Notes under the pieces: generated by a model
The model's database searches: none
What the model was told of the DNA's origin: nothing
What the model saw: only the letters and a program-made list of their open reading frames with translations
Part shown: positions 10,229-48,200 of the stretch, in pieces
Position numbering within the stretch: the first letter of the stretch is position 1
How the letters are laid out: every line of letters starts with the position of its first letter
Virus record (IMG/VR): IMGVR_UViG_3300009000_000009
Coordinates: 1 to 48,387 of that record
Source: a virus
Strand: one strand, 5' to 3'
Length of the DNA: 48,387 nt
Program-made: the position numbers and the translations under genes

Positions 10229-11224
10229 ATGCCATGTGTAAGTAGAGTGCCACCAGGTGGACCAAGAGATGGGGTTCAATATGGTTGTGAGGTAAATAAT
10301 GGTTATTGTATGAGTGCAGGTGAGGAAGGTAATTGCGGTACTTGCTTCAAGTTAATGCAGCGAGGTTCCGCTACTTATGTTTTTAAAAGTTTTTCTGACC
10401 AACAAAGATGCGAAGAGTGTGAAGTTGTAGCTGCTCCTGATGGTATGTTGCCATTACAGGTTACAACCGAATTCGACGAACCTTGTAAGAAATGCATACC
10501 AGGTGAAAGAAAAACTCTACAAACAAAATATGGCATATCGTATATTTGGTCAGATAAAAAAATAATAGATAAACCTTCTCCGGGCAGTCCTTGCGATAAG
10601 TGTGTACTATTTCTTTTTCCTAACCCCAGAGAGGTTTGGCAGGATTGCGCAGCTCAAAATCCTGGTGCATCTAATTGTGAATGTGATACTAGCAACCCCA
10701 AGATGCCTAGATGTGTTTGTTGCGACACTCCTTGCGGAGTATGTGAAGAGTGTACAAAAGTAGGCAGAAGAAAAAAATGCAAAAATATATGTAGAAATTT
10801 AGACAATAATATTTGTGTAGGTGGAAATCCTACTACAGGAACTAAGGGTAATTGTGTTTGTATGTTTTTGCCTTATAATCCAGCAGGAATATCAATGACA
10901 CAACTGATAGACGGATATCAAATGTGTACCGAAGCAGAGCCTAGTCTTAAGGCTAATTGTAAGGGTTGCGAATGTACTGTTACTTGCTTTGGTCAGACAA
11001 AGCTTGATCCTGATAAATGTAAATGTGTGCCTATGTGTGCTGATTGTACACCTAATTCTCAGTCATTTGGTGCATTAGAGGTTACAAGCAGTTGTCAAGA
11101 ATGTAGAGAAAAATCTCCTGGCAATTGGGGCTGTGTAGATATTTGCATACCTCCAGCAGTTTGCGACGGTAGTGGCGGCTGCTATACTCCTAAGAGCAGT
11201 TTAGGACTATCTCTATTACCATAA
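10229..11224 (+). CDS. Cysteine-rich protein 1, 331 residues
   Basis: About 40 of 331 residues are Cys, arranged mainly as CxxC or CxC pairs (GTCFK, RCEECE, PCKKC, RCVCCDTPCGVCEEC, CKGCECTVTC). There is no membrane helix and no conventional signal peptide. The chain ends GLSLLP, a hydrophobic-Pro terminus shared by all four Cys-rich proteins here. AAGGAGG precedes the start. Such density implies bound metal or many disulfides formed outside the cell. Context in the late arm suggests a virion surface or appendage protein, but I recognise no family. Confidence 0.75.
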   Translation: MPCVSRVPPGGPRDGVQYGCEVNNGYCMSAGEEGNCGTCFKLMQRGSATYVFKSFSDQQRCEECEVVAAPDGMLPLQVTTEFDEPCKKCIPGERKTLQTKYGISYIWSDKKIIDKPSPGSPCDKCVLFLFPNPREVWQDCAAQNPGASNCECDTSNPKMPRCVCCDTPCGVCEECTKVGRRKKCKNICRNLDNNICVGGNPTTGTKGNCVCMFLPYNPAGISMTQLIDGYQMCTEAEPSLKANCKGCECTVTCFGQTKLDPDKCKCVPMCADCTPNSQSFGALEVTSSCQECREKSPGNWGCVDICIPPAVCDGSGGCYTPKSSLGLSLLP

Positions 11225-11653: not shown

Positions 11654-12523
11654 ATGGGCACAGAATCAAGAACAGGACCACCTATTATTGTTAGTGATAA
11701 TCCTTATCTCAAATGCGCACCTTTAACGCAATGGGAGTGTGAATCTTGCGAATCGTATTTTTTAAATATACGTGGTCAGCAGGTTCCCGCATCAAGTTGG
11801 ATACACCACAATAATCTCTTTCCCTGCAGCACTTGTGAATGGGATAGGAAAAATCAGAGAAAGATCATCAAAAATATAGAAAAACCCTGCAAAGATTGTA
11901 CAGAGAAAGCAGTAGGCAAGCCCGATGCGAAACCTCGTTCTGTCAGAAAATGGGTGAGTAAAACGGCCCCATTGATCAATATCCCTGGGAATCCATTGCC
12001 AGTACCAGATCCTTGCGTAAAGTGCGTAGCAGATCCACAAAGTCCTGGGGGGGATAAATGGGTAGACAAATGCGGAGAGGGTTATGAATGCAACTCTAAA
12101 GGAAAGTGCATACCAGATAATTGCGGTACCGACTGCATTAAAAATTGCGAAGAGTGTGAGTGGGAGGATGCTAGTCATAAAAGAAAAATTTGTGTAAGTC
12201 AGTGTAGCGCAGTTACTGTTTGTGTAATAGACTTATTTTATAATAATCCAGATAATCCTCTTGAAAAAAGCGGTAGGTGTGAGTGTAAATTTCGCAATTA
12301 CGGATCTGAACCTCCTTTATTTACTCCTGCTGGCCAAACAGAATGTCCACAAGATCAGCCAGAAGTATTGAATAGGGTCTTCAATGGTTTGGCTGATTGT
12401 ACATGTGTTTGTAACCTAAATGAAGATAAATGCAAAGAACAAAATGAAGATAGTAAATTTGATGCTGATACTTGTTCTTGTGTTTACGATGCAGATGCAC
12501 TTTCTATTAACTTAATACCTTAG
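11654..12523 (+). CDS. Cysteine-rich protein 2, 289 residues
   Basis: About 28 Cys are spread along the chain in pairs: WECESC, PCSTC, PCKDC, DPCVKC, NCEECEW, DCTCVC, TCSCVY. Several short blocks repeat those of Cys-rich protein 1 (PCKKC then a K-rich linker, W, DK/PSPG, PCDKC), so the two are homologous in layout. The C-terminus is SINLIP. AGGAG lies 10 bases before the start. It is probably secreted into or assembled on the virion; metal binding is equally possible. No database family can be named. Confidence 0.75.
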   Translation: MGTESRTGPPIIVSDNPYLKCAPLTQWECESCESYFLNIRGQQVPASSWIHHNNLFPCSTCEWDRKNQRKIIKNIEKPCKDCTEKAVGKPDAKPRSVRKWVSKTAPLINIPGNPLPVPDPCVKCVADPQSPGGDKWVDKCGEGYECNSKGKCIPDNCGTDCIKNCEECEWEDASHKRKICVSQCSAVTVCVIDLFYNNPDNPLEKSGRCECKFRNYGSEPPLFTPAGQTECPQDQPEVLNRVFNGLADCTCVCNLNEDKCKEQNEDSKFDADTCSCVYDADALSINLIP

Positions 12524-16558: not shown

Positions 16559-17611
16559 ATGGCCGCTGAATGTTGTAATAGTAATTGCCCATGTCCCAGA
16601 CCAGATCAAGATCCTGATGGATCTTCTTTAGATCCGTGGCAAAAGGGTTATGGTGGTAAGTGCTGTGGATGTACAGCGATTGATTATGATAAGAATGTAT
16701 ATTTATGTAAATCTAGAAATATAGATCCTGTTACTGGAAAATCTGGTACACCTCATTGGAAAGCCCCTTGCGGTTGTGAATGTGACCCTACTAAGATTGG
16801 ACCATGCGATAAACCTGAGTATCCACATTTTATGTCTGAATTCTGTGGTTGTGGTTGTACCTATATTTATCAAATGAAAAAAAATCCTGATATAAATCCT
16901 TGCGGAGATGATATGAAGGTGGTTATTCAACCATGTAATTGTGGCTGTGATGTTGGTTACGACTGTAAAGCTGAGGACCCTAGTCGTCCTAAACTAAAAA
17001 TAACATGGACTACAGACTTAGCCGGCAACAAAACCGGAGATCAAGATTGTGAATGTGTATGTCCACTTAACGAACCTGGCGGACCTAGATGTGGTCAAGG
17101 TAAATATAGAAGGTTGCCACACTTCAAATCTAAGGATTGCTCATGTTATTGTAAACATGCAAGTGAGGAACCATGTACAGGCAGTACTCCCGATTTTGAC
17201 AAAGAGGATTGTAGCTGTAAATGCGCATATAAAGAATCTGTAAATCTACAATTCGTCAAAAAATGCCCTCCAAACAAACCCAGTCTGAGAGACTCTACTT
17301 GTAGCTGTTATTGCTATTTTGAAGAAGTTTTATATAAACAGGGATTAGATTGTGATTATTATAGCGATGGAGCATTACCTGATTTTGATGCTGATAATTG
17401 TCAGTGTGTATGTAAGCTTTTACAAAAAGGCTGCAGTGGAGGTAAAGTACCAGATCCAGCAGGAAAATGCAAGTGTGTATGTCCTCAGGGTATGAAAGAA
17501 TGCAAAGGAAAGTGTTATAATGCATGCCCATCTGGACAAAGTCGAGATCCTAATGATTGTGTATGTAAAAATTATACACAAGCTGTGCTTTCAGATATTT
17601 TCTTACCCTAA
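16559..17611 (+). CDS. Cysteine-rich protein 4 with nine CxCxC triads, 350 residues
   Basis: About 48 of 350 residues are Cys. Nine CxCxC triads are visible: PCGCEC, FCGCGC, PCNCGC, DCECVC, DCSCYC, DCSCKC, TCSCYC, NCQCVC and KCKCVC, usually preceded by a Pro/Asp/Phe spacer and followed by a single Cys. The spacing recalls the CxCxC repeats of animal Balbiani-ring-type proteins, though homology is not implied. The chain ends LSDIFLP. AAGGTG precedes the start. A rigid disulfide-linked or metal-loaded rod is the simplest structural guess. Confidence 0.8.
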   Translation: MAAECCNSNCPCPRPDQDPDGSSLDPWQKGYGGKCCGCTAIDYDKNVYLCKSRNIDPVTGKSGTPHWKAPCGCECDPTKIGPCDKPEYPHFMSEFCGCGCTYIYQMKKNPDINPCGDDMKVVIQPCNCGCDVGYDCKAEDPSRPKLKITWTTDLAGNKTGDQDCECVCPLNEPGGPRCGQGKYRRLPHFKSKDCSCYCKHASEEPCTGSTPDFDKEDCSCKCAYKESVNLQFVKKCPPNKPSLRDSTCSCYCYFEEVLYKQGLDCDYYSDGALPDFDADNCQCVCKLLQKGCSGGKVPDPAGKCKCVCPQGMKECKGKCYNACPSGQSRDPNDCVCKNYTQAVLSDIFLP

Positions 17612-38275: not shown

Positions 38276-39163
38276 ATGGCCGAAACATTCAATTTAAAGA
38301 TCGATGGAAAACCAACAGAATTTACTGTACAGTCACCAACCCTACATCAGCAGAGAGAGGGACAAAAGGTTTATAATCAGGCATTTTCAGATGCTGTAAA
38401 ATCTGGATCAATTGTTAGGGCAAAACTAGATGATCTACTTAAAGATCAGGGATTATGGGACGATGCCAAACAAGCTAGATTTTTAGCTATTCAAACAGAA
38501 CTTAACGATGCTGAGAAACAGTTAGCTACTGGTGGTATATCTTTACAATCTGCTAAAGGTGTTGCCTTGAGGATGAGAAATTTACGAGAAGAGCTTAAAG
38601 AACTCATTTCTGTTAGAACTAATCTAGATACACATACGGCAGAAGGTCAGGCTGATAATTCTAGATTCAATTATCTAGTTTCTTGCTGTGTGGTGTATAG
38701 TAGTAGTAAGAAGGTATATTTTAGTAGTTATGAAGATTACTTAAATAGATCCTCCGATCCTGTTGGAGTGTTGGGAGCACAAAAGTTGGCAGCTATGTTA
38801 TATGGCTTAGATTCAGAATTTGAGAAAAAATTACCTGAAAATAAGTTTTTAATTAATTACAAATTTGTAAATGATGAATTACGATTTGTAAATAAAGATG
38901 GCAAACTTGTTGATGAAGAAGGTAGATTGGTTGATGAGAATGGTAGGTATGTTAATGAGGAAGGAAAATTTGTTGATAGGGACGGAAACTTGGTTAGCGA
39001 AAGTGGTGATTATGTTGTAGATTTTGTGCCTTTTACTGACGATGATGGTAAACCTGTGGTTTTGGAAAGTAAAGATGAAAAAACAGAAACTTCAACAGAT
39101 AAAGAACCTGAAAGCTCAACTAAAGAAGAAAAGGAACCAGAATCAGAAAAAACTATTGAGTAA
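38276..39163 (+). CDS. Tail assembly chaperone-like protein with 7-residue repeats, 295 residues
   Basis: A helical domain (TLHQQREGQKVYNQAFSDAV; GLWDDAKQARFLAIQTELND) is followed near residues 200-245 by tandem 7-residue units of type (L/Y/F)V(D/N)E(E/N)G(R/K): LVDEEGR, LVDENGR, YVNEEGK, FVDRDGN, LVSESGD. The C-terminus is a long Glu/Lys/Ser tail. AAGGAG precedes the start. The protein is related to that at 36917 and is the last gene before the tape measure. The repeat may form a short beta-rod; its role is unknown. Confidence 0.65.
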   Translation: MAETFNLKIDGKPTEFTVQSPTLHQQREGQKVYNQAFSDAVKSGSIVRAKLDDLLKDQGLWDDAKQARFLAIQTELNDAEKQLATGGISLQSAKGVALRMRNLREELKELISVRTNLDTHTAEGQADNSRFNYLVSCCVVYSSSKKVYFSSYEDYLNRSSDPVGVLGAQKLAAMLYGLDSEFEKKLPENKFLINYKFVNDELRFVNKDGKLVDEEGRLVDENGRYVNEEGKFVDRDGNLVSESGDYVVDFVPFTDDDGKPVVLESKDEKTETSTDKEPESSTKEEKEPESEKTIE

Positions 39164-39245: not shown

Positions 39246-42200
39246 ATGGCAGCAGCATTTAATCTTACCGCACAGATTAATCTTAGAGGTCCTACTAATA
39301 CTAGAGCTATTGCTTCTCAAATGAGAAAGCAACTTTCTGGTATTAAAGTTAAGGTCGATTTGGATCTAAAGGGAGCAGCAGCTAAAAATGTTGCTAATAT
39401 TAATAAACAATTACAGTCTTTATCAAGAAATGCTGCTCTAGCCAATAAAAATGTTACCCAATTAAATCAAAGCATTGCTCAATTAGGTGCAGGTTTAAGT
39501 GGCTTAGGTTCTGGTTCTATACAGTCTTTAACCAAAATACAAAAACAGACTTCGAGCGCCGGTAAATCTATAGATACTGCCACATCACAGATTCAAGAAT
39601 TTGGCAAGCAATCTGGTCTTGCTATTAGAAGATTTGCTGCGTTTAGTGCTGTTACCGGCGTTGTTTATAGTTTAACCAATGCTGTTAATAGTGCCTATAA
39701 AGAATTTGTTCAGTTTGATAGACAATTAATTAGGTTAAGTCAAGTTACCGGAAGTAGCGTTGCTGGATTACAGGGTATTACTAATGAAATTACAAGACTA
39801 TCTACTAATCTTGGTGTTGCCTCCACAGATCTATTACAAATTTCTGTAACACTTGCTCAAGCTGGTTTAAGTGCTCAAGAAGCTAAAACAGCACTTGAAG
39901 CTCTAGCTAAATCTGCACTAGCTCCTTCTTTTGATAATCTTAACGATACTGTTGAAGGCAGCATTGCTTTAATGAAGCAGTTCAGTATATCTAGCTCTGA
40001 ATTGGAAGCTTCTCTTGGTAGCATTAATGCTGTTGCAGCCGCTTTTGCTGTAGAAGCTGGCGACATTATCAAAGCTATTCAGCGTACTGGTGGTGTGTTT
40101 GCTAGTGCTAGTCAAGGTGTTAGTCAGGGTACAGATGCTTTAAATGAATTCGTAGCATTATTTACTAGCGTTAGAGCCACTACTCGTGAAGGTGCTGAAA
40201 CAATCGCTACTGGTTTAAGAACCATATTCACAAGAATTCAAAGAGGTTCAACTATTGAAGCCCTTAAAGAATATGGTATCACTTTAACAGATTTAGAAGG
40301 AAAATTCGTTGGTCCTTATGAAGCTGTTCGCAGACTAAGCGAAGGTTTACAGGGTCTAGACCCTAGAGATGTTCGCTTTGGTCAGATTGTTGAAGAGCTT
40401 GGTGGTTTCCGCCAGATAGGTAAGGTTATTCCTCTTATTCAACAATTTACCACAGCACAACAAGCTTTGGCTGTGGCTCAGGGTGGTCAGAGCAGTCTTA
40501 GCAAAGCCGCAATACAAGCCCAAGCCTCACTTGCTGTGCAATTTGAGAAAACAAGACAATCATTTGTGGCGTTGGTAAGAGATATTGGCAATAGTACAAC
40601 TTTTAGAACTATAGCTAGCGTAAGTTTAACAACAGCTAATGCTTTTATTAGTCTTGCTGGCGCACTTAAACCTTTACTACCCATGTTAACAGCTCTTGCT
40701 GCTATTAAAGGAGCCTCGATTCTTAGTGAATTTGGTAGCGGTTTTCTGGGGGGCTTAGGAAAAACTAGCAGTGGCGGAGGTGGTGCTACTGGAGGCATGC
40801 CTGGTGGCGGAGGAGGTGGTGGAGGTACTGGTCGTGGTACTGGTGGAGGTACTGGTGGCGGTGGTGCTGGCGGATCAGAGAAAGATGATTATAGCGATGT
40901 TATATTAGCTAATACAGCTGCTATTTCCGCTAATACAGATGCTTTGACTAGTCAGATTACTATTATGTCTAGTAATACTGATGCTCTTAGTGGTTTAATG
41001 AAAACTATGGCCGACCTCATGGCCACAATGCAAGAATTAAATGGTACAATATCAAATCTTAATATTGATGGCGGTGATTCAGATTCAGGTCTAGGACTTA
41101 ATAAAGGCGGTCCAGTTCCGCGTTTTGCTAGTGGTGGCAAGGTTCCTGGTACTGGCAATAGAGATACTGTAGAAGCAATGCTAACACCAGGTGAATATGT
41201 CATTCGCAAGAAAGCTGTTGAAAAAATAGGTGTAGAAAATCTTGAGCAGTTGAATCGTGGTGGTAGAATTAAGGGTTATGCTCGTGGGGGACGAATCGAA
41301 AAAATACAGGCGCATGATGCATATGACGGCGACTCGTGGCATGTATCCTATATTCCAGAATCTAGTCCAGTTGGACCAATGACTAGTCGTGGTGAAGGTT
41401 ATGATGCTTATGAAATCAAAAAGGGTTTAGCGTGGGAAAGGGCTCTAGGTCAAAGAGCTACAGAAATAGCTCAAGGGGCTTTTACTGATTCTCGCAAAAT
41501 GTCTATTGACCATAGTTTAGGTAAGGCTTTAACGCAGGGACAATCTGTTGGCGGTAGACCTGTTCATAGTGTTCCTAATAGTATTGTAAACCAGATGGTT
41601 GCTGAAGGTGTTGCTCTTAGAACATCTAATAAAGATAATGTTGCAACAGGAAAGGTGCAGTCAGAAAAAGTTAAGGCGACACAATTAAAAACTCTTGAAA
41701 GTATGGGTAATAAAAAACTTGTTTATGATAGAGAAAGAAGTAAGTTAGCTTCTGGCGGCATGGTGCAAAAATTTGCTGGAGGTGGAGGCGTTAAACAGGG
41801 TGAACAATTTGGTGGCGTTGGTATCTTTGATAGCGATATGATTGGTGCTGGTAGTAAAGACGTATTAAATGCTATTTTAAGTTCTGGCAAAGATTATGAT
41901 GTTATTAGTGGGCCAGCAGGTTCTGGTAAAACCACTTTTGCTACTCAAAGATTCGGTAAAAATTTTGTATTATCTGCTGATGATTTAGATAAATTTAAAG
42001 AATTTATGGTATTAAGCAGTGCTGGTGAAACTAAGAGCGGAGATTTTAGTCCTCAAGCACAGAGCATTATGTCTGGCGCTCGACAAATCACCGCATTAAT
42101 AATTCCTGCTGAAAAAATTACACAACAAAGACAACAAAGACTAGACGATGCTTTAAGATCTGGCAGCCAGGACAAAAGATCCACCAAACAATTGCAGGGC

Positions 42201-45200
42201 ACCATCAATGCCCCAACATCTATCCCTCAAAATCTTTATGATCAATTTAGTAATGTAGAATTTTTAGAACAGTTCGCTAGTGGTGGGTTGGTACAAAGAT
42301 TTGATGATGGCGGTGATGTTGGAGGTATTAAGGTTGCTAAAACTGGTAAAATTAATAAATCTGATATAGAAAGACTAACCGAAAAACAAGCTGCTGCACT
42401 ATTAGAAAACCCGAACGTACAAAAGAACTTATTTACTGTATCACAACTACAAAAAAGAATTCAGCAAAGACAAGCTGTTGCTCAAGAAGAACAAGAACTT
42501 GTTGGAGCTAAACAATATGGTTTAGTTGGTTTATATGGTAGTCCTAGAAACGTAACAGCCAAAACCGAAGATGGTGATACGGTCCAACTTATTGGTAAAA
42601 CATTAGATAAAAAATTATCTGATGAATATGAAAAAATGATGACTGATGGTTTTGAGCAAACTGTAGCTGTAGTTGGTAATAATATGGCTAGTAGAGTGGG
42701 TGCATCAGCTGCCGCCCTAGATAAAAATCAGATGGAAAAAGCTGGATTATACAATGCTATTGGGGCATATCTTGAAGCTGCTATTGCTACACTAGGAGCA
42801 CCATATGATAAAGATGAAACAAATGATCCTATCGATTTTGCTGGAGGTATAGGGAATGCTGCTGCATTATTCGGTATACCATCAGATATTCCTACTGATA
42901 CTACTAGAACAGTATTTGGTAAGGGGAAAAGTCCTAATGATTTTCTAGGTCAAGTTAATAGATATCGTAAACAAATACAAAGATTTGCTAATGGTGGCTC
43001 ACCACAAGATACTGTACCAGCATTATTAACTCCTGGCGAGTTTGTAATTAATAAAGAAGCGGCTAAAAAGCTTGGTTCTGAAAAACTCAATAAATTAAAT
43101 AAAGCCGACAGAATTCAAGGCTTTAATAAGGGTGGTGCTGTTGGTTTTGTTCAGCGTTTTGCTGGTGGTGGCAGTGTTGAAGATGATAAAGCCGCTTATG
43201 TTGCTAGAATGGCTGAAAAATTAGGCATGACAGTTGAAAAATATGAGAAGATGATTCGTGCCAGAATTATGAATACTGCCGCCCAAAGAGCGGATGAAAA
43301 CACAGGATATCAAATTGATATTCAGGATATTATTACTAAAAATATGGAATCTATTGGTGATGCTGATGTAGAAGGTGTAGTCAGAGCCCAAGTACAAGAT
43401 CTTGTAGAAAGAATGTATGGCGGTGTAGATCAAATTGATCCTGATGTTTTTGGTGAAAGTCTGGATGATTTAATTGATATGATGAAGAAAGGTTTATCTC
43501 TTGAGGAAATAAAAGCTAAATCAGCAGAATGGGCCGATACACTTGATAGTCAAATAGATGCTATTGATATGGCAGCTGAAGCTCAAGAAAAAATGGCTAA
43601 AGAATTGGGCTTCTTAACCGAAGGAATGAAAACAAAAGATATAGACTTTAGAGCACAAAAATCCTTAAGCGAGGGTAAGTTTGGCGCATTTGATAAAATG
43701 GATCTTAGAGGAGCACAGGAAAGTATAGAATCTGGTTTTGGTAAAATACTTGACGATATTGGTACTAAATTTAGTACAGCTAATCTTCCTGGTATGGCTC
43801 GACTATCTAGTTCTTTCCCTGATGTGGCCGATAAAATCACTATGATTGGTGATAAGATGGGAGGGCTGACAGGAATACTAGGTGCAGGTTCAACATTATT
43901 AGCTAGTAAATTACCACAACTAATCGATTCCTTCGACAAGCTTACCGGAACCGTATCAGATCATAGCGAAGCTGTGGCTGGTGTTACTGGAGCGTTAAAA
44001 TCTGCTGGTAGCTTTGGTTTGAGTGGTGCTGTATTAGGTCAACAAGCGTTTGGTAGAAGAGGAGCTGCTGTTGGTGGTGCTATTGGTTTAGCTGGTGGCG
44101 CCGTTAGTGGATTTATTAAAGAATCTACAGCTAAAGAAGTAGAAAACGCTATGAGGGGTGTAACTGAAGCCTCTAGTAATTTAGATAAAACACTTAGCCG
44201 CTTAGATATGGCTCAAACAATAGCAGAAAGACAAGAACTAGTTAAGCAATTAAATGATGATTATGAGGCTTTGAATCAAGCTTTGAGTAAATCTGCTCAG
44301 GAAATAGAAAGTAATAGAATTTGGAATGCTTTAAGCAGTGGTTTAGAAGGTTTTCTTAGTACATTATCTACCGTAATAGGCTTTATGGCTGCTGCTAGAA
44401 TGACTCAAGCAGCAAGTATGGTTCCTATGCCAATGGGGCGTGGTCGTCGTCGTGGTGGCAGAAGGGGTATGGCTATTGGTGGTCGCGTAGGTTACTCTAG
44501 CGGATCTGATGGGCCATTGGTTCCTGTACATTTGGCCGCAGGAGAAGGGGTACTATCTCCAGAAGTAGCCTCACAGTTTTCTGACATGCAATTGCAAAGA
44601 TTAAATAACGCAGATAAAAATGGTTATGGTGCTAATCCAGATATGCTTGATGGCGCACCTATGGGTATTGTTCCAGGTAAGGGTAGTGGTAAGGTTGATA
44701 ATTTTAAGACTAATTTACCAGCTAATTCATATGTAATCAAAAGTTCTTCGATGGATGCTTTAAGGGCTGCTACTGGAGGTAAAATTTCTAGCGGTTCAAT
44801 AAGTGCTAAAGGTTACTCTGGCGGGGGTAGTATCTCTCGTATTGGTTATGCTGGTGGAGGTATTGCTAGACAGGGCCATTTTGCTGGTGGTATAATAGGT
44901 AAATTAATTGTAGGCGCTATTAGGCTTGGCTTTAGAACAATCGGGCCAACACTTACTAAAGGGCTATTTAAGATAGTTTCCCCTGTATTTCGTACCATAG
45001 GTAAATTTTTTGGTAGTGGTTTTGGGACTATGCTGACGTATGTTTTGGGTGATACTTTGTTGAGTGGTATTTCGGGTTTCTTTGATAACACAGCCCAAGA
45101 GCAACAATTAGCTGCCCAAATAGCCTCACTGGAACAATTAAGAAAATTAGTTGATTTAGAAACCCAACGTATTACAAGAGATCCAGAATCTTCTAGAAAA

Positions 45201-48200
45201 TTTTTGAGTAAAGTTGATACTGTTGAAAGAGCTAATTTAACAGCAGAACAAAGAAGAGCTCAGTATGCTAGTACTAGGGATGCTTCTGGTGGGATTAATG
45301 ATCTTAATGTATTATTACAAAATCAGGCTAGAGCTAAGCTTAGTGGCGCTGGTTATGAAATGGGAGAAAACCAGACCGTACAAGAATATCTTGACACTTT
45401 AAGCGGCGATGATAGAATAAAAGCCGAAAAGATTGTTGTTGAGGCTAGTGAAGAAGTTAATAAAAGATTATATCTACAAAGAAGAGAAAGACAGGGCATT
45501 GATCTTAGTACGGCTCAGAAAGAATACGAAAGCTCTGATCCTGAAATGAGAAAAAAGGTCGCTAGAGCTATTGCAGAAGAATCAGGAGCACAAAACCGTA
45601 GCATAGCCCTTAATAGGCAAATGATAAGGGTTAATAGAGAATTACAAAAATTCACTCTAAATCTTACAGATGTAATGAATAGGCTTGGTGCCACAATGAA
45701 TAGGGTTACATCTGAGATTGCTGCTAGTTCTAGTAGATTATCTAGGATTGCTGATGAATATAGTGGTGGTAATGTTGCTTCTGCAGATCCAGAAGAAAAT
45801 GCTGTTAGAACATTATCTAATATAACTGCTTATAGTTCTCAAGAGCTAGCTGGTGTTGTAGATAATATTAATGCAAGTTTAGGAGATACTAAAGAAACCA
45901 GACAAATGGGAGATCTCGTTAAAGGTCTTCAAGTAATGAGAAAAGAATTACCATTAATTCTTAGAGATACTGCTGATAGCGGACCTATTGACGCTGGTGC
46001 CGAAAGTAATATTAGAGACAGATTACAAACAATGTTTACTGGCGTGGATATTGACAAAAATATTAAGAAAGATCTTGAAGATAGTATTATAAACTATATT
46101 AGCGATTCTACCGGTAATAGACAAGGTATGAGTTATGAAGATTTAGCCAATAACATCAAAGGTCTTGAAGAATTAGATGCAGCAGCAGAAAAAGCTAGAA
46201 GTACTTTTGAAGAATATGCTAAAAAACAAGTAGAGGCCAACAGGGTTCTTGGTGGCATATCTAATCAGCTTGCTGGTCAATTAGACAGATTAAAAGATAA
46301 TGTTATTAAGGTTCGAGACATACAATTACAAAGCGCCAATGATCTTGCGGATAAATTTAATAGAACAATTAGCTTGGCCGACCTAAACGCACCATTCATG
46401 GGTTCTGTATCAGGTTTAACTGGCGGAACAACTGACGCTGCTAAAATTGGCAGCATGATAGCAGAAGCTATTGCTCAGAAACGAGCGTTAGAAGCAGATC
46501 CAAATACACAAACTAGTGCTCTTGGATCAGGACAAATTGCTAAGCTTACATCAAAAATTAATAGTTACCAAAGAGCTTTAGATATACTAGCTACTAGCAC
46601 TGATAGAGCCTCTAATGCCCTAAAGAAAATAGATGAGCAGCAGCGAATTTCTGCTGGTAGACGTAGTGGTGTAATGGATTTTCTTGCCAATGTAAATAAT
46701 CCAGAAGCATTGATGCAAATGAGACAGGAACAGGTGTCTTACTCTAACGTTATGGCTGGAACAGGCACTGTGAACGATATTGCTCAAGGTATTTCTAGTT
46801 TAAGAATGGTAGAAAGTACTCAAACTCCAGAAGAATTTGCCAGAACACAAGAAGCGTTTTTTAATAATGCTATGACTATTTTGGAAAATGCTGGTGGCAA
46901 CCCTGCAACTATCCAGCAGTTTAGAGATACTTTTGCAGCAGATTTCGCACCACAAGATCAGAATCCAGCAATCCAACCTTTTGTTGATGCTTATCAAGAA
47001 GCTATTAAACAACAAACATTGGCTGTAGAACAACAATCTAAATTGATTGGTACTGGCGCAGAGTTGACTGCTAACGCATTAAGACAGGGTGCTGACGACT
47101 TTACCTCTAGAATGAAGACAGCCACAGATAATATAGTTGCAGAGTTAAATGCTGTTGCCGACAGATTAGGTTTGGGTCGTCCAGCAGATAGTCAAGGTCT
47201 AGCTACTGGAGGTATTGTTTATGCTGCTGCTGGACAAATGATTAATTTCCAACCAAGAGGTACAGATACAGTACCAGCTATGCTTACTCCTGGTGAATTT
47301 GTTGTTAATAGGGCCGCAACCGCGAAGAATCTACCATTATTGAATTCTATTAATAGTGGTAATTATTATAATGGCGGTCAGGTTGAATATAGAGCTATGG
47401 GTGGTCAGATTGGAACAGGAAATACAACTGCTTATCGTAATTTTGGCAATCTTAAACGATATAACAAAGATTCAGTTGATGATTATGAAGCCAATAAAGA
47501 TACAGTTCCATTTGATTATATGGATTTTATTGGCAACAAAGATGGTAGTGTTAGCGATACAGAAGTTACTAAATTAAATAAGATTATTAGTGACCATAAG
47601 AAACAATATTTTTCACCTAGCAATATTATTAAATATCAAAGAGCAAAAGTATTAATTCCTGATTGGAAAGAAAAAGAAAAAGAAGGTCAACCTTGGAGCA
47701 GTACATCTTTTGATTCTCTTAAAGATGCTCGTGAGTTTGCTATAGAGATGGAGGCTGCTCATGGTATTCCATTATTTGGCAAAGATTCTGTTGGTAATGC
47801 GTCTACAAGCCACCCAGCAGTAACTGGCAAAAATTATGGTGGCGATCCAAAATTACCTATGGAACCTAATGTTAGAAGCGGATTTAATGATATTTTTGAA
47901 AGAAGTATTGCTTCTAGAAATGCTGTTGATCTTGAAGCTTATTTTTATGGATTAGCCTCTAAAGCTCTACCCACTCTTGGGGGTATTATTGGCGGTGGAT
48001 TAGGTGTAGTAGCAGGTACAGCTGTTGGAGTACCTACCGCTGGTGTTGGTTCGGCGGTTGCTTTACCGTTGTGGACTATTGGTGGCGCTATGGCCGGAAA
48101 CCTCATTGGTCATGGTGTGAATAGTTACGCCTATAGCTGGCTTCCTAGCGGATGGAAAGACAGAATTGTTAAGAAAGTTCAAGAAAATCCAGGTTCATAT

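Follow-up and report, generated by a model that had tools for sequence, protein, structure and literature searches.

A staphylococcal-nuclease homologue and a predicted nucleotide-kinase-like domain in the variable region of a phage tape-measure protein

Introduction

Phage tape-measure proteins (TMPs) are known as rulers of the tail, as channel formers and sometimes as peptidoglycan hydrolases, and those of other phages exit the tail before the DNA and touch the inner membrane. At that membrane, the defence protein SNIPE encounters the TMP of phage lambda (PMC13190303). Here, we describe the TMP encoded on a phage record of 48,387 bases (IMG/VR virus record IMGVR_UViG_3300009000_000009, positions 1 to 48,387; hereafter the window), in which a homologue of staphylococcal nuclease (SNase) and a P-loop domain with a predicted nucleotide-kinase-like fold lie in a region whose content changes from relative to relative. 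The TMP of this phage group probably also serves as a carrier of exchangeable enzyme domains, which would be delivered at infection.

Several described systems resemble this arrangement. The polyvalent proteins of phages and conjugative elements are very large, combine unrelated enzyme domains (ADP-ribosyltransferases, protein kinases, nucleases) and are believed to enter the host together with the DNA (Iyer et al. 2017, PMC5512222). The TMPs studied here likewise hold several unrelated enzyme domains per protein (SNase and P-loop in the window; ADP-ribosyltransferase, HIGH-type nucleotidyltransferase and P-loop in relatives), and, given that TMPs of other phages exit ahead of the DNA, they may be injected as well; however, the account of polyvalent proteins mentions neither tape measures nor SNase nor nicotinamide mononucleotide, and here the TMP itself is the carrier. 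The MuF toxins of temperate phages are virion-associated and bear interchangeable toxin or enzyme domains, including ADP-ribosyltransferases (PMC5576092). There, a portal-associated head protein bears the variable toxin at its C-terminus, whereas the window cassettes are internal to the TMP, at residues about 680-1250 of 4,356. TMP-related carriers are also found in contractile injection systems, namely Tme with an endonuclease (PMC11126660) and Sle1 with an exchangeable functional domain (PMC13277306); these belong to bacterial injection particles rather than infectious phages and have a single C-terminal domain, the nuclease being of the EndA type, unlike the internal cassettes and the SNase of the phage TMP. 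In the phage-like element BtI1, an SNase-related domain sits on a tail structural protein, as in the window, although there it is N-terminal on the baseplate hub and no kinase-like partner is reported (PMC2147016). The principle is therefore already known with other carriers, and the TMP is the novel one: the open-access literature, with preprints and non-open papers lying outside our search, yielded no paper that describes a phage TMP with internal SNase or kinase domains.

Results

The TMP was recognized by a PhageMin_Tail domain within the longest open reading frame of the tail gene cluster. Its frame runs off the window; a 113.8 kb contig (L006/L090), which is identical to the window wherever the N-terminal and cassette regions were fetched, extends it to the full 4,356 amino acids. 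For comparison, 55 TMP relatives (numbered loci with the prefix L) were retrieved from IMG/VR using the PhageMin_Tail domain, and further loci were added through domain-based scans, some of them being contigs already in the set. The cassettes were compared by profile searches, as plain segmentation and clustering had merged everything via the linkers. The features on which the analysis centres are as follows.

39246..>48386, + strand: TMP gene (PhageMin_Tail 1.4e-24 in Pfam, tape-measure PHROGs), frame open at the window end
39783..40400, + strand: PhageMin_Tail domain (Pfam), TMP residues 180-385
41277..41765, + strand: SNase-like domain, TMP residues 678-840 (profile, conservation, AlphaFold/Foldseek)
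41325-41336, + strand: motif DGDS, TMP residues 694-697
41388-41414, + strand: motif RGEGYDAYE, TMP residues 715-723
41811..42281, + strand: P-loop domain, TMP residues 856-1012, nucleoside-monophosphate-kinase-like predicted fold
41910..41936, + strand: Walker A motif GPAGSGKTT, TMP residues 889-897 (K895)
41964-41996, + strand: motif FVLSADDLDKF, TMP residues 907-917

A sequence-only reading of this DNA had pointed out these four motifs, all of which stand where it placed them in the frame opening at 39246, and had likened the first two to the catalytic residues of staphylococcal nuclease. This likeness is borne out. Searches with the segment as a single sequence (Pfam, PHROGs, PDB, phage tblastn) gave no match, and a profile of relatives was required. 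The segment is present in 7 TMPs of the first set of relatives, and the profile built from these 7 reached staphylococcal nuclease in the PDB with an E-value of 7e-9 over the full domain length; a held-out profile, from which the window copy and its closest relative had been excluded, found the window at 3e-8. Residues D694, D696, R715, D720, E723 and R771 occupy the positions of D19, D21, R35, D40, E43 and R87 of staphylococcal nuclease. The equivalents of D19, G20, D21, R35, D40 and E43 show no change across 15 TMPs, even though their SNase domains share only 15-38% identity with the window copy; the catalytic residues are thus kept in relatives rather than lost. R771, within GGRP, is the R87 equivalent in one subgroup; in another subgroup GFGR is located elsewhere, and a further SNase copy, in L080, has DVD instead of DGD. 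The domain of L041 (VVDGDT...GIDAPE) passes the Pfam SNase family (PF00565) at 21.8 bits against a cut-off of 21, and that of L052 scores under the cut-off. In 2,000 shuffles of the full-length window TMP, the composite motif DGD[ST]-x10-30-R-x4-D-x2-E was expected 0.0015 times per protein. The ratio of non-synonymous to synonymous substitution rates (dN/dS) in the SNase is 0.24-0.32.

Instead of coiled coil or disorder, AlphaFold predicts a confident alpha/beta domain for the nuclease segment. When residues 670-1252 of the window TMP were modelled, the SNase core reached a predicted local distance difference test (pLDDT) of about 80-93, its strands and helices following one another as expected, and the loop between the SNase halves was of low confidence. 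Foldseek matched this model to staphylococcal nuclease (probability 1.00, template modelling (TM) score by target about 0.5), and the SNase model also matched viral TNase-like proteins. Identity to staphylococcal nuclease in the fold match is about 20%, and the insertion between the halves is longer in the window. With its profile similarity, its catalytic and metal residues and a predicted OB-fold barrel plus helices, the segment is a true SNase homologue at the level of family and fold. It shares with the other homologues (PF00565, TNase-like) the fold, the strand and helix order and the D19/D21/R35/D40/E43 equivalents, but these are usually secreted or stand-alone proteins, whereas the window copy is internal to a TMP.

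The second pair of motifs calls for more caution. Because the TMP is glycine-rich, the pattern G-x4-GK[ST] is expected 0.44 times per TMP in the same shuffles, so the Walker A motif alone lies within chance and is no evidence; its conservation in relatives is evidence, and relatives were therefore needed. As a single sequence, the P-loop segment retrieved only generic AAA families below the cut-off (AAA_30 2.4e-4, AAA_33 0.01). The segment is 96% identical in L011, with a dN/dS of 0.066, and 60% identical in L004, whose TMP is otherwise distant. By hhalign, the window P-loop matched at 96.9% a TMP family in which a P-loop precedes a second domain bearing GGFxPTxAGH and ISGTxxR, signatures of an HxGH-type nucleotidyltransferase; a profile of this family made without the window copy scored the window weakly, at 9.5 bits, and the window copy has no nucleotidyltransferase half. 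When modelled, the window P-loop (pLDDT 81.7, predicted TM score 0.78) had UMP/CMP and adenylate kinases as top Foldseek matches and also resembled guanylate kinases, with a probability up to 0.98, TM scores of 0.28-0.46 and E-values of about 2e-3. These comparisons support a conserved domain that would bind nucleoside triphosphates (NTPs), with a UMP/CMP- or adenylate-kinase-like predicted fold. The sequence-only reading had proposed a polynucleotide-kinase or zeta-type protein; an NTP-binding domain of nucleotide-kinase-like predicted fold is what stands of that proposal, while the profiles, with their sub-threshold generic AAA matches, did not single out polynucleotide kinase or zeta toxin, and that narrower assignment is unsupported.

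The paired form occurs as a unit of about 400 amino acids in L033, L041, L049, L052, L027 and L038, as well as in L064, L066, L069-L074 and L076, lying at TMP residues about 780-2050 across carriers. Within the scans made here of the viral collection, the pair was confined to tape measures. The nucleotidyltransferase half of the relatives matched CTP_transf_like (0.011), NadR (0.039) and HIGH_NTase1_ass, all under the Pfam cut-off. NadR itself joins an adenylyltransferase to a kinase; compared with it, the relatives' TMPs pair the P-loop and the HxGH..ISGTxxR domain in reverse order and with sub-threshold Pfam scores, and the window copy lacks the nucleotidyltransferase half.

The cassettes are bounded by a recurring linker, and a third module follows the P-loop domain.

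41130..41261, + strand: motif GxG..DTVEAMLTPGEYVIRKKAV...LNRGG before the first cassette (phrog_35029, 33 of 36 members)
41764..41785, + strand: linker behind the SNase cassette (GGMVQKFAGGGG), at which L011 becomes alignable again
42292..42313, + strand: linker after the P-loop cassette (GGLVQRFDDGG)
42976..42997, + strand: third linker repeat (QRFANGG)
42516..42983, + strand: PD-(D/E)XK-like module (motif order E..IDFxxGLG..FG..PTEVKRT; motif level)

At the three linkers of the window, the DNA itself forms 22-base repeats. A linker follows within 25 residues of 12 of the 15 SNase domains, against an overall density of one linker per about 1,400 residues. Comparison with L011 locates an exchange at such a linker: DNA identity is 91% as far as residue 682, alignment fails across the SNase, and from residue 841 identity is 96%, with the GGxVQKF linker at the junction. 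Both TMPs have an SNase there, of different subtypes (18% identical), and judged from these alignments the SNase has been swapped wholesale between them. The sister L007, 89% identical in its N-terminal part, has neither SNase nor P-loop, and in L085 and L086, where the P-loop is missing, the third module comes straight after the SNase. A tree built from the N-terminal TMP part requires at least 11 changes of state for the SNase and at least 10 for the P-loop. In the set based on N-termini, the P-loop is present in 6 of 6 SNase carriers and in 2 of 25 others (Fisher 4e-5); once kinship is allowed for, the median p is 0.06, and co-occurrence beyond kinship is suggestive.

The PD-(D/E)XK-like module is found in 44 of the 55 TMPs, the window included, and had no PDB profile match. 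The window copy reads TDTTRT, with the lysine replaced, so catalysis has probably been lost there. A second PD-(D/E)XK-like family was also read in TMPs at motif level.

Further cassettes occur in the relatives. An ADP-ribosyltransferase (PF03496) exceeds the Pfam cut-off in the TMPs of L015 (residues 669-834) and L071 (1210-1414), profile searches place such domains in six more TMPs, and ART-PolyVal is weak in L021. Three other segments were noted at motif level. The first is a HAD-like domain (LAFDFDETL..TRILTARP..KLIDDN), present in L012, L015, L025 and 22 other TMPs and often immediately before the PD-(D/E)XK-like module. The second is a protein-kinase-like segment (GSGGENVAF..LKISR..DAHGSNMGY..IDG), at residues 812-1030 of L052 and 822-1046 of L064, with no Pfam match. 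The third is an acetyltransferase-like (GNAT-like) segment (GYGPRLYDxVMEAV..SDRxxVSGxAxxVWxYYF), at residues 1254-1380 of L022, 892-1016 of L004 and in ten more TMPs, with no PDB profile match. Where PDB or Pfam profiles were searched, the HAD, GNAT and PD-(D/E)XK assignments were unconfirmed.

Discussion

Since enzyme modules are exchanged among relatives, the ruler probably has a second function as a carrier of injected enzymes. The variable region lies between the N-terminal tail-assembly part and the remaining ruler, and GGx(I/V)Q(K/R)F linkers stand between its cassettes, which in the window are, in order, the SNase, the nucleotide-kinase-like P-loop domain and the PD-(D/E)XK-like module. 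By analogy with the TMPs of other phages, the protein would be packed inside the tail tube and would exit before the DNA at infection. Its cysteine-free cassettes may be threaded through the tube and regain their fold once in the envelope or cytoplasm, where the SNase would cleave nucleic acid, and the kinase-like domain, together with the nucleotidyltransferase in relatives, may alter pools of nucleotides or nicotinamide adenine dinucleotide (NAD). Take-over or counter-defence would be the purpose. The sequence-only reading had likewise suggested that the pair could act on host DNA or nucleotides at injection. It is as likely as not that a whole clade of large phages injects enzymes in this modular way, with a constant ruler and a hypervariable payload whose modules (nucleases, kinase-nucleotidyltransferase pairs, ADP-ribosyltransferases and others) would be swapped at linkers under host-defence pressure.

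Several points weigh against such a carrier role. SNases typically depend on calcium at millimolar levels and might therefore be inactive in the cytoplasm; a nuclease that enters alongside the DNA could damage the phage genome. The Foldseek match of the P-loop domain is moderate, at a TM score of about 0.4-0.46, and the P-loop part is of low confidence in the triple-domain model. Zero cysteines were counted in six of seven full-length TMPs (4,356-5,992 amino acids), that of the window among them, and two in the seventh; cysteine is scarce in the window's other structural proteins as well, and its lack in the TMPs is therefore weak evidence for threading. Both phage and host are uncultured.

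Given the calcium requirement, action of the SNase in the periplasm or outside the cell is a serious rival, although we judge it rather unlikely. The cassettes would then work within the virion or on the cell surface during entry, with a calcium-dependent SNase clearing extracellular or periplasmic nucleic acid or cutting the DNA of later phages (superinfection exclusion) instead of attacking host DNA in the cytoplasm. SNase-family enzymes are typically secreted, which suits this reading, and the use of the SNase-related domain on the BtI1 baseplate hub was left unexplained by its authors (PMC2147016). Against it, the kinase-, nucleotidyltransferase-like and ADP-ribosyltransferase domains of the same TMP region would need cytoplasmic ATP or NAD.

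Tape measures tolerate insertions, and TMP length among the relatives spans 2,932 (L008) to 5,992 amino acids (L093), so the domains might instead be recruited folds without an enzymatic role that only fill space in the tail or set its length. This is quite unlikely, given catalytic residues that stay invariant among SNases of low identity to the window copy, the dN/dS values of both domains and inserts that come repeatedly from enzyme families. Still less probable are selfish insertions of intein or homing type that are spliced out or tolerated: the patchy distribution among close relatives and the sharp boundaries would fit, but no Hint-type splicing motifs were seen in the TMP, SNase lies outside the homing-endonuclease families, several enzyme families share the region, and the intein reading is rejected as the TMP has no cysteine. 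Least credible is a chance likeness in a long low-complexity protein, which the expected frequency of Walker A and the empty single-sequence SNase searches might favour but which the held-out and PDB profile matches, the Foldseek match and the conservation in relatives contradict, refuting it for the SNase.

If TMPs do carry exchangeable enzymes that act on nucleic acids and nucleotides, these would rank with the earliest candidate factors for counter-defence or take-over, because TMPs exit the virion before the genome. The protein would then also offer a natural, modular and cysteine-free scaffold for protein delivery and a source of candidate anti-defence enzymes, and it would link phage TMPs to the TMP-derived effectors Tme and Sle1 of bacterial injection particles.

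Other features of the window and its relatives

Cultured phages gave no useful match, a GTDB scan for the host returned no relative, and WhiB and psbA, sought as host clues, were absent from 20 relatives. No sheath gene was found in 20 relatives, which fits a siphovirus, short of proof.

Upstream of the TMP lie terminase and tail-type genes and, at 38276-39163, a protein with FVNKDGKLVDEEGRLVDENG-type tandem repeats near its C-terminus. Within the TMP, positions 47967-48119 encode a hydrophobic, glycine-zipper-like stretch (GGIIGGGLGVVAGTAVG...) of a type noted in other TMPs; a glycine-zipper stretch is required for translocation of the type VI secretion effector Tde1 (PMC10240207). Three predicted proteins of the window are very rich in cysteine: the one at 10229-11224 has 40 cysteines in 331 amino acids, that at 11654-12523 has 28 in 289 and that at 16559-17611 has 48 in 350, whereas the structural proteins contain almost none.

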